From Rhodospirillaceae bacterium (GTDB taxonomy: Bacteria; Pseudomonadota; Alphaproteobacteria; Rhodospirillales; Rhodospirillaceae), in NCBI GenBank assembly GCA_947476695.1, contig CANJRD010000001.1, positions 1 through 64,000 on the forward strand: DNA of 64,000 bases. The letters run 5' to 3'. Of this stretch, positions 13,460 to 25,795 are shown in pieces. A program made the translations under genes and the position numbers. Position 1 is the first letter of the stretch; the number at the start of each line of letters is the position of its first letter. Below the pieces are notes generated by a model that was given only the letters and a program-made list of their open reading frames with translations, did no database searches and had not been told where the DNA came from.

Positions 13460-14167
13460 GTGACCTACAAAGTTGCTCTGGTTGATGACGACCGCAACAT
13501 TCTCACCTCCGTGTCCATGATGCTGGAGGCGGAGGGGTTCAAAGTTGTCACCTATCGCGACGGCACCGAGGCCTTGCGCGGCCTCCAGGCCGAACCGGCG
13601 GATTTGGCCGTTTTCGACATCAAGATGCCCCGGATGGACGGCATCGAGCTTCTTCAACGTGTGCGCGAAAAAAGCAGCATGCCGGTCATCTTCCTGACCT
13701 CGAAGGACGACGAGGTCGACGAACTCATGGGTCTGCGCATGGGCGCGGACGACTACATCAAGAAGCCGTTCAGCCAGCGCCTGCTGATCGAGCGCATCCG
13801 GGCGGTGTTCCGCCGGCTGGAAGCCCAGAAGGCGGGTGCGGCCGGCTCGTCGGCCGCGTCGGTGAAGCGCGGCGAACTGGTGCTGGACCCGGCGCAGCAT
13901 CTTTGCCTGTGGAAAGGGCTGCAGGTGAACCTGACCGTCACCGAGTTCCTGATCATCCAGGCGCTGGCCCAGCGCCCCGGCCACGTAAAGAGCCGCGACC
14001 AGTTGATCGACGCCGCCTACGGCGAACACATCTATGTCGACGACCGCACCATCGACAGCCACATCAAGCGGCTGCGCAAGAAATTCCGTGAAGTCGACAC
14101 CGAGTTCTCGCACATCGAAACGCTGTACGGCGTTGGATACAAATATAACGAGACCGGCAATCCCTAG
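13460..14167 (+). CDS. chvI: Response regulator ChvI, OmpR family
   Basis: 235 residues from a GTG start with GAGG upstream. The receiver domain at residues 1-120 shows the acid pair VDDD, the phospho-acceptor Asp in [14 protein letters not shown] in FLTSKDD, and Lys in DYIKKPF. The C-terminal winged helix (about 135-230) has the OmpR wing and [12 protein letters not shown]-like recognition segment (here [12 protein letters not shown]). ChvI is the output of the ChvG sensor in alphaproteobacteria, controlling acid response, exopolysaccharide, motility and envelope genes. chvG follows 38 bases later. Confidence 0.95.
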
Positions 14168-21153: not shown

Positions 21154-22545
21154 ATGACCGATTACATCGTTAAAGACATCAGCCTGTCCGATTGGGGCCG
21201 CAAGGAAATCAACATCGCCGAGACAGAGATGCCGGGCCTGATGGCCCTGCGCGCCGAGTTCGGCAAGAAGCAGCCGCTGAAGGGCGCGCGCGTCGCCGGC
21301 TCGCTGCACATGACCATTCAGACCGCCGTGCTGATCGAGACGCTAAAGCATCTCGGCGCAGACGTGCGCTGGGCCTCGTGCAACATCTTCTCGACGCAGG
21401 ACCAGGCCGCCGCTGCGATCGCCGCCGCCGGCACGCCGGTGTTCGCCGTGAAGGGCGAGAGCCTGGAAGATTATTGGGATTACACCCACAAGATCTTCGA
21501 GTGGGCCGACGGTGGCTATCCGAACATGATCCTCGACGACGGCGGCGACGCGACGCTGCTGATCGTGCTGGGTTCGGAAGCCGAGAAAGACCCGTCGCTG
21601 ATCTCCAAGCCGACCAATGAAGAAGAGACCATTCTGTACGCCAGCATCAAGAAGCGCCTTGCCGCGCAGCCGGGCTGGTACTCGAAGGTGAAGGCCAGCC
21701 TCAAGGGCGTGTCGGAAGAGACCACCACGGGCGTGCATCGCCTTTACGAAATGGCCAAGAAGGGCCGCCTGCCGTTCCCGGCGATCAACGTCAACGACAG
21801 CGTCACCAAATCGAAGTTCGACAACATCTACGGCTGCCGCGAAAGCTTGGTGGACGGCATCCGCCGCGCCACCGACGTGATGATGGCCGGCAAGGTCGCG
21901 ATGGTCGCGGGCTTCGGCGACGTGGGCAAAGGCTCCGCCGCTTCGCTGCGCATGGCCGGCTGCCGCGTGATGGTGTCGGAGATCGATCCGATCAACGCGC
22001 TGCAGGCCGCGATGGAAGGCTATGAAGTGACGACGATGGAAGATGCGGCGCCGCGCGCCGATATCTTCGTCACCGCGACCGGCAACCTCGACGTGATCAC
22101 GGTCGATCACATGCGCAGCATGAAAGACCGCGCCATCGTCTGCAACATCGGTCACTTCGACACCGAAATTCAGACCGAAGCCCTGAAGAACTTCAAGTGG
22201 CACAACGTGAAGCCGCAGGTCGACGAGATCGAGTTCCCGGGCGGCAAGCGTATCATCCTGCTCGCCGAAGGCCGCCTCGTGAATCTGGGCTGCGCCACCG
22301 GCCACCCGAGCTTCGTGATGAGCGCCTCGTTCTCGAACCAGGTGCTGGCCCAGATCGAGCTTTGGGTGAACAACGCGAAGTACGAAAAGAAGGTCTACGT
22401 GCTGCCGAAGCACCTCGACGAGAAGGTCGCCGAACTGCATCTGGCGAAAGTCGGCGCCAAGCTGACCAAGCTGTCGGAGCGCCAGGCGTCCTACATCGGC
22501 GTGGCGGTGCAGGGCCCGTACAAGCCCGAGACCTATCGCTACTAG
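21154..22545 (+). CDS. ahcY: Adenosylhomocysteinase
   Basis: 463 residues. Hydrolyses S-adenosylhomocysteine to adenosine and homocysteine, removing the product inhibitor of methyltransferases. Motifs present are the substrate segment [13 protein letters not shown], the DDGGDAT stretch, [18 protein letters not shown] with the active Lys/Asp, the NAD-binding [12 protein letters not shown], and the C-terminal PYKPETYRY that reaches the neighbouring subunit. The 40-residue insert typical of proteobacterial enzymes is present around residues 150-190. A clear terminator follows at 22580. Confidence 0.97.
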
Positions 22546-22827: not shown

Positions 22828-25296
22828 GTGCCATTTGGGTTTATGCAGATCAGCCAGGCCGTCGATTTTTTGACGGCGCCATGGGTCGCGGTAACGCTGG
22901 CCGTGGTGCTGATTGGGCTGCCTGGCCTCCTGCTCCTCGTGCGCCAGCACAAGCATTGGCTTCGGGCCGAACAGGCGCGTGACAGCGCCAGTTATGCCCG
23001 GGTGGCCTTGGAGTCCGCGCTCGAGACCGCGCCGGAAGGCTACTTCACCTGGTTCGTGCGGCCCGTCAATCCCAGCGACGATGGGTTGCCGGCAAGCTGG
23101 CGTGGCGGCGGCGACGCGCCGATCGGGGTTTGCTCGCGCCGGCTCGCGGTGTTGCTCGATCTTTTCCACGGCCTTGAAGCCAACTTCGATCAGGTGGTGG
23201 AAGGCTTCGACAAATCGTCCCAAGACACCCTGCGCGCTGCGGTGAATGCCTTACGCACCGACGGCGATGGCTTCCAGATCGCCTTGACCCACGCCGCCAC
23301 GCGGCGGCGCATCCAGGCCCGTGGCTTACGCGCCGTCGATAACGACGGTCGCACCATGGCGGATGTGGTGTGGATGGGCGACGTGACCGAAGGCGTCGCC
23401 GCGGTCGACACGCTGACCCAGGAAACCTCGGAGCTGCGCCGCGAGCGCGACCTGTTGAAGGCCGCGATGGACGGCGTGGCGGAACCGATCTGGGTGCGCG
23501 ACGACGATCTGTCGCTGATCTATTGCAACGCCTCCTACGTCCGCGCCGTCGACGGCCGGGATGCGGATGACGTCGTGGCCCGTGGCCGCGAGCTGGCCCC
23601 GCGCGTTTCGGTGCGCGAGGCCCGCGCACTGGCCGCCGCCGCCCGCGCCTCGTCCGAAACGCGCCGCGCCCCGTTCCACATGGTCATCGACGGCAGCCGC
23701 CGCCTGATGGAAGTGACCGAAGCTGCCGTGAACCTGAAAAGCACCGCCCGGCCGGAGCGCGGCGATGCGCCGCTGTTCTCGGATGGCAGCGGTCGCCTGA
23801 CCACGGGCATCGCCTACGACATCACGCGCCAGGAAGAACTCGAAGTCCGCCTGAAGCGCGAAGCCGCCTCGCATGCGGACGTGCTGGAGCGTCTCGGCAC
23901 CGCCATCGCGGTGTTCGGGCCCGACACGCGGCTGGCCTTCTTCAACACCGCCTTTGCGAAGCTGTGGAACCTCGACCGCAGCTGGCTGCACGAAGCCCCG
24001 ACCTACGCCACGGTGCTCGATGCCCTGCGCGCCGAACGCCGCCTGCCGGAAGTGCCCGACTTCCCGGCGTATAAGGAAAAGGAAGTCGCGCGCTTCAATT
24101 CGTTGATCGAGCCGATTGAAGACCTGCTGCATCTGCCCGACGGCGGCACGTTGCGCCGCGTGGTCGCCCCGCATCCGATGGGCGGCTTGCTGACGACCTA
24201 TGAGGACGTCACCGACAAGCTGGCGCTCGAACGGTCGTACAACACCCTGATCGCCGTGCAGCGCGAGACCATCGACAACCTTCAGGAAGCGGTTGCCGTG
24301 TTCGGGGCCGATGGGCGCCTGCGCCTGGCCAACCCGGCCTTTGCCGGCCTGTGGGAGTTGAGCCTCGACGCCCTCAACGACAACCCGACAATGGGTGAAG
24401 TCATCGATGCCTTCCGCGGCTTCTTCGACGACATCGGCGTTTGGGCGCGTCATCAGAGCGTGATGTTGACCACGCTCGACGCGGATCGCGAACGCGCGAC
24501 CCAGCAAGGCCGCGTGATCCGTCGCGACGGCTCGGTGCTGGAGTTCATCTCCGTGCCGCTGCCCGACGGCGGCGTGCTGTTCTGCTACAACGACGTCTCC
24601 GCCCCGGAGCGCGTGGCGCAAAATCTGCGCGGCAAAGCCGAATCACTCGCGCTGATGGACAAGCTGCGCACCGGCTTCATCATTCATGCCGCCGAGGAAG
24701 TGCAAGGCCCGCTGGGCGCCATCGCGCGGCTGGCCGGCAAGCTGGCCGCCCGCGCCGAGCCTGGGTTGCGCTCCACCGCCGCCGAGATCCTCGCCGCCGC
24801 GGAAGATATCAAAGCGCTGTTCGACGACATGAACGATCTCGCCGAACTGGAAGCCGGGCAAAGCACGCTGCGCCTGGACACGGTCGATCTTGCCGCCGTC
24901 ATCGCCCGGGTCGCGGTGATGACCCGCGAGACTGTGCGCCGGCGCGGGGCGCCGCTGACCATCGATTGCCCGCCACACGCCGGTTGGGTGGTGGGCGACG
25001 TCGTGCGCCTGAAGCAGGCGCTTTATCATCTGGTGATGACCGCGCTGACCGCAGCGGGCACGAGCCCGGTCGCCTTGAACGTGCGCGGCGGCGCCGATCC
25101 CACACAGATCGAATTGAGCCTGCGCTATATCGCCGATCCGGCGCTCGACCCGGGACCGCAGGCGCTGGGCCTTCAGTTCGCGCGCCGCATGGCGGAACTG
25201 CACGGCGGCGGTGTCGATGTGAATACCAACGGCGTCGAGGCCCTTGTCGCCTGCCGCCTGCCGGCGGGCCCGCTGCGCGCCGTCTCGGTGGGCTGA
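22828..25296 (+). CDS. DivL-like multi-PAS pseudo-histidine kinase
   Basis: 822 residues. A single N-terminal membrane helix (about 14-38) is followed by a coiled linker and several PAS-type regions. Recognisable PAS cores lie near 210-330 (AMDGVAEPIWVRDDDLSLIY), 350-470 (RLGTAIAVFGPDTRL) and 480-600 (NLQEAVAVFGADGRL). The HisKA-like region reads FIIHAAEEVQGPL, so the phosphorylatable His is Glu623. The ATP-binding half lacks the N-box Asn and the DxGxG loop. In alphaproteobacteria the gene in this position, between ahcY and tsaE, is the DivL type, whose Caulobacter member has Tyr at this site and tunes CckA/DivK signalling. The protein is probably a scaffold or allosteric regulator without kinase activity (inference). 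The start is GTG 22828 or ATG 22843. Confidence 0.82.
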   Translation: MPFGFMQISQAVDFLTAPWVAVTLAVVLIGLPGLLLLVRQHKHWLRAEQARDSASYARVALESALETAPEGYFTWFVRPVNPSDDGLPASWRGGGDAPIGVCSRRLAVLLDLFHGLEANFDQVVEGFDKSSQDTLRAAVNALRTDGDGFQIALTHAATRRRIQARGLRAVDNDGRTMADVVWMGDVTEGVAAVDTLTQETSELRRERDLLKAAMDGVAEPIWVRDDDLSLIYCNASYVRAVDGRDADDVVARGRELAPRVSVREARALAAAARASSETRRAPFHMVIDGSRRLMEVTEAAVNLKSTARPERGDAPLFSDGSGRLTTGIAYDITRQEELEVRLKREAASHADVLERLGTAIAVFGPDTRLAFFNTAFAKLWNLDRSWLHEAPTYATVLDALRAERRLPEVPDFPAYKEKEVARFNSLIEPIEDLLHLPDGGTLRRVVAPHPMGGLLTTYEDVTDKLALERSYNTLIAVQRETIDNLQEAVAVFGADGRLRLANPAFAGLWELSLDALNDNPTMGEVIDAFRGFFDDIGVWARHQSVMLTTLDADRERATQQGRVIRRDGSVLEFISVPLPDGGVLFCYNDVSAPERVAQNLRGKAESLALMDKLRTGFIIHAAEEVQGPLGAIARLAGKLAARAEPGLRSTAAEILAAAEDIKALFDDMNDLAELEAGQSTLRLDTVDLAAVIARVAVMTRETVRRRGAPLTIDCPPHAGWVVGDVVRLKQALYHLVMTALTAAGTSPVALNVRGGADPTQIELSLRYIADPALDPGPQALGLQFARRMAELHGGGVDVNTNGVEALVACRLPAGPLRAVSVG

Positions 25297-25303
25297 GCGT
25301 CAC

Positions 25304-25795
25304 TTGCCCGGCCCGCGCGCCTTTTTCCTTGCCGACGAGACCGCGACGATCGCGCTGGGCGCGGCCCTGGCCCGCCTCGCCGGCCCCCGCGTTGTGTTCG
25401 CGCTGAACGGGCCGCTGGGCGCGGGAAAAACCTGCCTCGCGCGCGGCCTGATCGAAGCGCTGCAACCTGTCGATGCGGAGGAGGTCGTCAGTCCGACGTT
25501 CACGTTGGTCCAGACCTATCCCACCGCCGCTGGGGCGGTTTGGCATTTCGATCTCTACCGCCTAAAACATCCCGACGAGGTTCTGGAACTCGGCCTGGAA
25601 GATGCGCTGGCGGAAGGCATCGCCGTGATCGAATGGCCGGAGCGGCTGGGTCCGTGGCTGCCCCGGAACCGCATCGATGTTACCTTGGCGCAGGATGGCA
25701 CGGGCCGGCACGCGACGGTGACCGGGCACGGAAAATTGGCCGATGCGGTCGCTGCCTGGCAGCCGCGTCTGCCGGAGACAAGTGGGGCGACGTGA
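25304..25795 (+). CDS. tsaE: tRNA threonylcarbamoyladenosine biosynthesis protein TsaE
   Basis: About 163 residues. Walker A GPLGAGKT, then VSPTFTLVQTY and HFDLYRLKHPDE, and later VIEWPERLG are the TsaE signature blocks. This ATPase drives turnover of the TsaB-TsaD-TsaE complex that makes t6A37 in ANN-decoding tRNAs. The most likely start is TTG 25304, eight bases after the preceding stop; an upstream ATG lies inside the DivL-like gene. The stop overlaps the amgK start (GTGA), so these genes are translationally coupled. Confidence 0.9.
   Translation: MPGPRAFFLADETATIALGAALARLAGPRVVFALNGPLGAGKTCLARGLIEALQPVDAEEVVSPTFTLVQTYPTAAGAVWHFDLYRLKHPDEVLELGLEDALAEGIAVIEWPERLGPWLPRNRIDVTLAQDGTGRHATVTGHGKLADAVAAWQPRLPETSGAT

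Follow-up and report, generated by a model that had tools for sequence, protein, structure and literature searches.

The divL gene of a Rhodospirillaceae bacterium, located in the 64,000-nucleotide stretch of DNA analysed here (the window), encodes a pseudokinase whose two halves have fared very differently: the PAS half is conserved, and the DHp-CA module has lost its phospho-acceptor, its ATP-binding motifs and two of the residues that dock DivK in Caulobacter crescentus. We put the probability at roughly 65% that this protein acts as a PAS-driven regulator of CckA that is uncoupled from canonical DivK docking. Glu623, which occupies the phospho-acceptor column, is probably one accidental state of a decayed half that, judging from its sequence, lost the features for sensing DivK. 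DivL is the textbook example of a kinase turned sensor of a response regulator. In Caulobacter, the control of CckA by the PAS array and the reading of DivK~P are hard to separate; a clade in which the sensor half has decayed while DivK survives would separate them, and it offers a testable order of events for the dismantling of the DivK arm of the CtrA pathway.

Results

The gene at the conserved divL position encodes a degenerate pseudokinase

This gene is its genome's DivL orthologue. Among solved structures, the best match is Caulobacter DivL (phmmer, 4q20, E 6.6e-12; the next at 0.0014), and within its own 3.9 Mb genome the next match to DivL reaches only 37.5 bits, inside another kinase. 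The reading frame starts with GTG and is open across all 822 codons. As the preliminary description had noted, the gene keeps the DivL genomic position between ahcY and a TsaE reading frame (Table 1), and the order ahcY-divL-tsaE is also seen in relatives.

Table 1. Features of the divL locus, in window coordinates.
Feature	Position	Strand	Basis
divL orthologue, degenerate pseudokinase, 822 aa	22828..25296	+	ORF reading, alignment to 4q20, profiles
N-terminal hydrophobic, membrane-anchor-like segment, residues 13-37	22864..22938	+	Sequence; membrane location inferred
PAS array, residues 71-595	23038..24612	+	Pfam, predicted structure, invariant columns, PAS profile
Decayed DHp helices, residues 596-675	24613..24852	+	Profile score, rates, docking columns, model
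Glu623 codon, phospho-acceptor (Caulobacter Tyr550) column	24694..24696	+	Sequence, 4q20 alignment, orthologue alignment
Gln626, column of DivK-docking Arg553	24703..24705	+	Alignment; Arg553 role from accessible text of PMC4211667
Leu635, column of DivK-docking Tyr562	24730..24732	+	Alignment; Tyr562 role from accessible text of PMC4211667
CA-like domain without N-box Asn, G1 loop or ATP lid, residues 684-815	24877..25272	+	Sequence, model
ahcY, upstream neighbour in conserved DivL position	21154..22545	+	Pfam/NCBIfam
TsaE ORF, downstream neighbour	25244..25795	+	Pfam/NCBIfam; listed TTG start, true start probably later

Four PAS families were matched by Pfam, with the best stretch of PAS_7 at residues 482-595, and neither HisKA nor HATPase_c was matched at E up to 0.1. 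The C-terminal kinase fold is recognisable from weak matches of NCBIfam kinase models to residues about 591-754 (best 48.4 bits, cut-off 725), and 219 residues are retained beyond the PAS array, so that the protein is not the short PAS-only form. The predicted structure is of moderate quality (mean pLDDT 65, pTM 0.34). It has a long helix at residues 17-66, three clear PAS-like strand sets and one poorly modelled set at about 217-340, and DHp helices followed by a CA-like fold without an ATP lid, where pLDDT is mostly 73-86; the first DHp helix is broken just past Glu623. Among the fold matches of this model, 4q20 ranks 23rd.

The phmmer alignment to 4q20 pairs residue 623 with the Tyr of NVSYELRTPL, and the placement of the acceptor column is therefore independent of the eye of the earlier reader, who had assigned Glu to it. 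The reader's further observation that the N-box Asn and the DxGxG loop are gone is borne out by comparison with intact DivLs. Since the acceptor His and the ATP-binding motifs are both missing, the protein is not an active histidine kinase.

The acceptor residue drifts among orthologues

Glu at the acceptor site of DivL is not conserved. The site was surveyed in the window's sequence and 136 other orthologue sequences, leaving out duplicates and four low-scoring loci that are other kinases (L002, L003, L005, L008); without four fragments (L035, L088, L099, L139), 133 rows were kept for the tree, 122 of which have a residue at the column. These read Y in 41, A in 30, E in 11, D in 6, F in 6, V in 5, H in 4 and T in 3 rows, the remainder being C (3), R (3), S (2), N (2), G (2), P (2), Q (1) and K (1). 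The three genomes of the window's genus have E, E and D; across the 33 sequences of the clade around it, the residue is A, E, D, V, S, T, F or N. On the gene tree, 6 changes between acidic and non-acidic residues are needed. Within the window's own family, the 12 loci with Tyr all lie outside the window's clade.

The preliminary description had taken it as a given that DivL proteins swap the His for Tyr. This is true of most loci sampled in other orders (23 of 31 with a residue at the column) and of few in the other families of the window's order (6 of 32), frequencies that come from loci of our own choosing and not from a random sample. Tyr-for-His replacement is no fixed trait of DivL in Rhodospirillales, the order to which Magnetospirillum also belongs. 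According to the accessible text of PMC4211667, the Tyr is conserved throughout except in Magnetospirillum magneticum, whose DivL has Ala and is likewise non-Tyr and non-phosphorylatable; the exceptions are far more numerous than this text states. Loci sampled from families f22 and f4 have Ala in a module that is otherwise intact (247-332 bits), unlike that of the window's DivL.

The whole DHp-CA module has decayed beside a conserved PAS half

The window's DivL scores 559 bits against a PAS profile of Tyr-type DivLs and 91 bits against a DHp-CA profile built from 22 Tyr-type DivLs. Full-length members of its clade resemble it, with 526-564 bits for the PAS half and 36-136 bits for the kinase part where present, and the nearest outside genus, g2, reaches 532-552 and 316-320 bits. 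The decay concerns the whole module and not the acceptor alone: orthologues classed as intact, including loci with Ala, Val or Cys at the acceptor, score 247-386 bits with the DHp-CA profile. In 21 sequences, 220 of 600 positions are invariant up to window residue 600 and 12 of 222 beyond it.

Substitution rates follow the same division. In simple counting estimates from hand-picked disjoint pairs (dN values copied by hand), the median dN(DHp)/dN(PAS) is 1.79 for the clade (8 of 11 pairs above 1, DHp being slower than PAS in the other 3) versus 0.64 for intact DivLs (0 of 10 above 1), and the median dN(CA)/dN(PAS) is 2.31 versus 0.89 (Mann-Whitney p 0.03 and 0.002, respectively). The disjoint pairs were taken from 24 decayed pairs (medians 1.37 and 2.09) and 15 intact-side pairs (medians 0.55 and 0.98; three with intermediate modules). 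Within the window's genus, dN/dS is 0.15-0.18 for DHp, 0.15-0.34 for CA and 0.11-0.13 for the PAS half; as these values lie well under 1, the DHp-CA remnant is constrained, only less so.

Outside the clade, decayed DivL differs in part. Three f29 sequences (L117, L118 and L119, from G227, G248 and G100) have Arg at the acceptor in genomes without a DivK match, and in f29 pairs DHp and CA evolve far more slowly than PAS; this module has perhaps been separately repurposed.

DivK-docking residues are lost in the clade

In Caulobacter DivL, mutation of Arg553 or Tyr562 disrupts binding of DivK~P (PMC4211667, accessible text). Both residues are replaced in the window's DivL, by Gln626 and Leu635, and the equivalent of Ala601 is retained as Ala672. 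Arg is found at the 553 column in 8 of 33 clade sequences versus 51 of 56 intact ones, and Phe or Tyr at the 562 column in 0 of 33 versus 51 of 56, with columns 562 and 601 lying near gaps for part of the clade. Glu replaces the docking Arg in 15 of the 33, which at the level of the alignment looks like a shared derived state. On the side of DivK, the first helix is the usual docking surface. This helix is nearly identical between the window's genome and Caulobacter (alignment to 1m5t), so no compensating change is visible there.

DivK persists in most of the clade

The window's genome encodes the partners CckA (5idj match, E 4.6e-65), ChpT (PF10090, 37.5 bits, cut-off 22.9), CtrA (NF045991, 400 bits, cut-off 350) and DivK (1m5t match, E 2.7e-52). 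A kinase encoded about 8 kb past the window's end matches DivJ best among the NCBIfam models, with a score far below the cut-off of that model. All three genomes of the genus have a full-length divK, the other two with 91 and 94% identity to that of the window's genome, and a dN/dS of 0.029-0.037 indicates strong purifying selection on it. A scenario in which DivK was lost first is rejected for this genus, as the gene is full length in every one of its genomes.

The wider clade comprises 35 rows (SH-aLRT 100) in a gene tree of the PAS region, built by a quick method; branches beyond the family are long. All 34 rows that allow a judgement show a decayed or missing module, and the remaining locus, L067, is cut by a contig end. 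Among 36 clade genomes classified for both proteins, 26 have a full-length DivK, 4 a broken one and 1 a DivK deprived of its phospho-accepting Asp; it was not found in 4 and lies at a contig edge in 1. The four broken genes, single breaks of a kind that could be assembly errors in draft genomes, carry reading-frame breaks (G020, G069, G043) or a stop and an internal deletion (G008). Three of the four genomes in which no DivK was found (G011, G054, G071) are under 90% complete, G067 being the exception. In G068 (L234), a full-length DivK with Asp53 replaced by Asn stands beside a decayed DivL, and the partial DivK of G052 appears to be cut by a contig end. G010, which was left unclassified since a contig end truncates its DivL, likewise has no DivK match. 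Outside the clade, the nearest genus (g2) combines Tyr at the acceptor with an intact module and DivK.

The simplest account would place the decay of the module in the ancestor of the clade, at a time when DivK was present, and the breakage of divK later, at several tips. We lean, by little more than even odds, towards an order in which the half of DivL that reads DivK was the first to decay, in the common ancestor, with DivK strongly selected for another task and lost afterwards at separate tips. If true, the order would be reversed relative to that proposed for Rhodobacterales, and the living genomes would amount to a natural experiment: DivL-CckA signalling and DivK would coexist in them, yet uncoupled.

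The statistical association of decayed modules with a lost DivK is no more than suggestive. In the raw table of 98 rows, each at least 90% complete, full-length DivK stands to broken, missing or Asp-less DivK as 45 to 3 with an intact module and as 29 to 21 with a decayed or absent one (Fisher p 1.9e-5, before corrections). Counted in independent tree pairs, the association is 2.6-2.8 to 0 (median p 0.25; intermediate modules of 175-240 bits, the contig-edge case and one unclear DivK omitted), and we do not claim a significant link, since it is non-significant once kinship is allowed for. The DivK tables omit G010, G061 (unmapped; DivK match of 88%) and G364 (a fragment), and G307, G309 and G294 were outside the DivK query; completeness and DivK states were copied by hand from search output. 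Genomes outside the family were chosen by us from the matches listed, partly for short matches, so that frequencies over orders and classes are not those of random samples.

Some relatives have lost the kinase half outright

In G020, a genome of the window's family, the divL frame stops after the last PAS domain and tsaE follows 91 bases further; the 1.5 kb downstream, read in its three same-strand frames, gave no histidine kinase match. The frame likewise stops behind the PAS array at eight more loci from five further groups (G033, three in f77, one each in f103 and f108, and two in f178), and the tree needs 5 changes for the PAS-only form. A further candidate, L135 (G455), was rejected and assigned to the intact class: its histidine kinase part is intact in a different reading frame (340 bits).

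Brilli et al. 2010 (PMC2877005) state, on data not shown and in the text accessible to us, that kinase-less DivL is always accompanied by absence of DivK. The PAS-only DivL of f178 (G507 and G599; L137, L138, L232 and L233), found together with a divK-pleD-like pair, is an exception to this rule and resembles the horizontal DivK case described in accessible text of PMC9430884. This family was not used for the order of events. G599 has a second DivL-like match.

Occurrence of DivL and CckA

A DivL orthologue is present in 66 of 73 genomes of the family, and 261 of 297 sampled genomes of the order have a DivL match at E up to 1e-40; a 2021 survey (PMC8116508, accessible text) lists divL in only 27-36% of Rhodospirillales genomes and suspects divergence. 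CckA is matched in 63 of the 73 family genomes (E up to 1e-60) and in 26 of 26 genomes of a second set (E up to 1e-50), and all 9 genomes with a PAS-only DivL are among these matches. Seven of the ten family genomes without a CckA match (G006, G007, G011, G036, G043, G049, G061) are under 90% complete, the others being G018, G019 and G060; the last, 97% complete, has DivL.

Discussion

What distinguishes the window's DivL is best appreciated against that of Caulobacter crescentus (4q20; Childers et al. 2014, PMC4211667, accessible text). Both proteins consist of a PAS array followed by DHp-CA, and CckA, ChpT, CtrA and DivK occur in both organisms. Caulobacter DivL, however, keeps Tyr550 together with the H, N, G1, F and G2 boxes and docks DivK~P, whereas these motifs and the two docking residues are gone here. 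Decay or loss of the DivL pseudokinase is in itself a known kind of change: in Rhodobacterales with a PAS-only DivL, and in Oceanicella and Albimonas with their degenerate long DivL, the pseudokinase half is likewise decayed or lost, and the PAS half and CckA are kept (PMC9430884, accessible text). In those lineages DivK is absent, with one horizontal exception, and its loss is placed before the decay; in the window's clade, by contrast, full-length DivK is mostly kept and decay appears first. Several Rhodospirillales lack DivJ and DivK according to work cited in the same 2022 mBio paper. A decayed DivL beside a vertically kept DivK, or decay preceding the loss of DivK, was not found in the accessible portions of the literature searched.

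We infer a loss of DivK binding and a control of CckA by the PAS array alone, in addition to the order of events given above. The C-terminal half, in Caulobacter a dead kinase fold that reads DivK~P, has lost its acceptor, two docking residues, its ATP site and much of its constraint, and Glu623 would be the drifting state of a residue that no longer matters. Signals would pass from a membrane-bound PAS sensor to CckA and on to ChpT-CtrA via the conserved PAS half. The DHp-CA remnant would serve as a dimer stalk at most and would take no orders from DivK by canonical docking; selection on DivK in the genus would presumably concern its kinases, of DivJ/PleC type, or another target. PAS-only DivL reportedly regulates CtrA in Rhodobacter capsulatus.

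The chief competitor of this reading is a module that has been re-tooled and not lost, its derived DHp-CA still binding DivK, or a new partner, through a changed interface. In its favour, the fold is predicted to persist, dN/dS of the kinase part stays at or below 0.34 in the genus, and DivK is conserved in the same genomes with a dN/dS of about 0.03; DivK and a decayed DivL coexist in 26 clade genomes, which makes a new docking mode conceivable, and the change of the docking Arg to Glu in nearly half of the clade sequences would fit one. The altered f29 module, with Arg at the site and no DivK match, is under strong constraint, which suggests that repurposing has happened elsewhere in the order. 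Nevertheless, we hold re-tooling to be a tentative alternative, with perhaps one chance in a handful or so, as the first helix of DivK is nearly unchanged, substitution in the clade's module runs at about twice the rate of the PAS half, and G020 has dispensed with it altogether. Uncoupling from canonical DivK docking stays the preferred account. That the decayed C-terminal half announces the loss of the whole gene, a pseudogene in the making, is very improbable given the low dN/dS of the PAS half, its 220 invariant positions and the presence of an orthologue in nearly all family genomes.

As for Glu623 itself, the preliminary description had proposed that the negative charge mimics phosphorylation and locks the scaffold in one signalling mode. 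That acidic residues occupy the site in all three genomes of the genus and all seven of genus g22 would suit such a lock, yet the clade's other genera mostly have A, S, V, F, T or N with equally decayed modules, the site has crossed between acidic and non-acidic states repeatedly on the tree, the loss extends to the neighbouring docking residues and to the ATP residues, and within the clade the module mostly outpaces the PAS half in substitution rate. Phosphorylation of the DHp is, moreover, not required in Caulobacter (PMC4211667, accessible text). We regard the lock as a long shot, if slightly less so than a pseudogene; no paper on a Y550E mutant was found in the literature searched for one. 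Whether close relatives share the Glu, as the preliminary description had asked, depends on the congener: G002 (77% identity) does, and G001 (75%) has Asp. With E and D in the same column of congeners and a frame open over its full length, we rule out a sequencing or assembly error at this codon, a reading of negligible probability that has nothing to recommend it beyond the draft state of the assembly (31 contigs).

Further observations concern the surroundings of the pathway. In the window's genome, a CheY-like single-domain regulator directly follows chpT (L212; G000 contig 12, 68500-74500). Within the window, a receiver domain encoded at 13472-13801 (+) belongs to a response regulator of about 250 aa that seems to resemble ChvI. 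Four small genomes of the family (G006, G007, G018 and G019; 1.3-1.7 Mb) have no match for DivL, CckA, ChpT or DivK, an apparent loss of the whole pathway. Finally, several divL loci up to 77% identical to that of the window (L011, L013, L014 and others) come from records titled 'Candidatus Marinimicrobia', and these titles look wrong.
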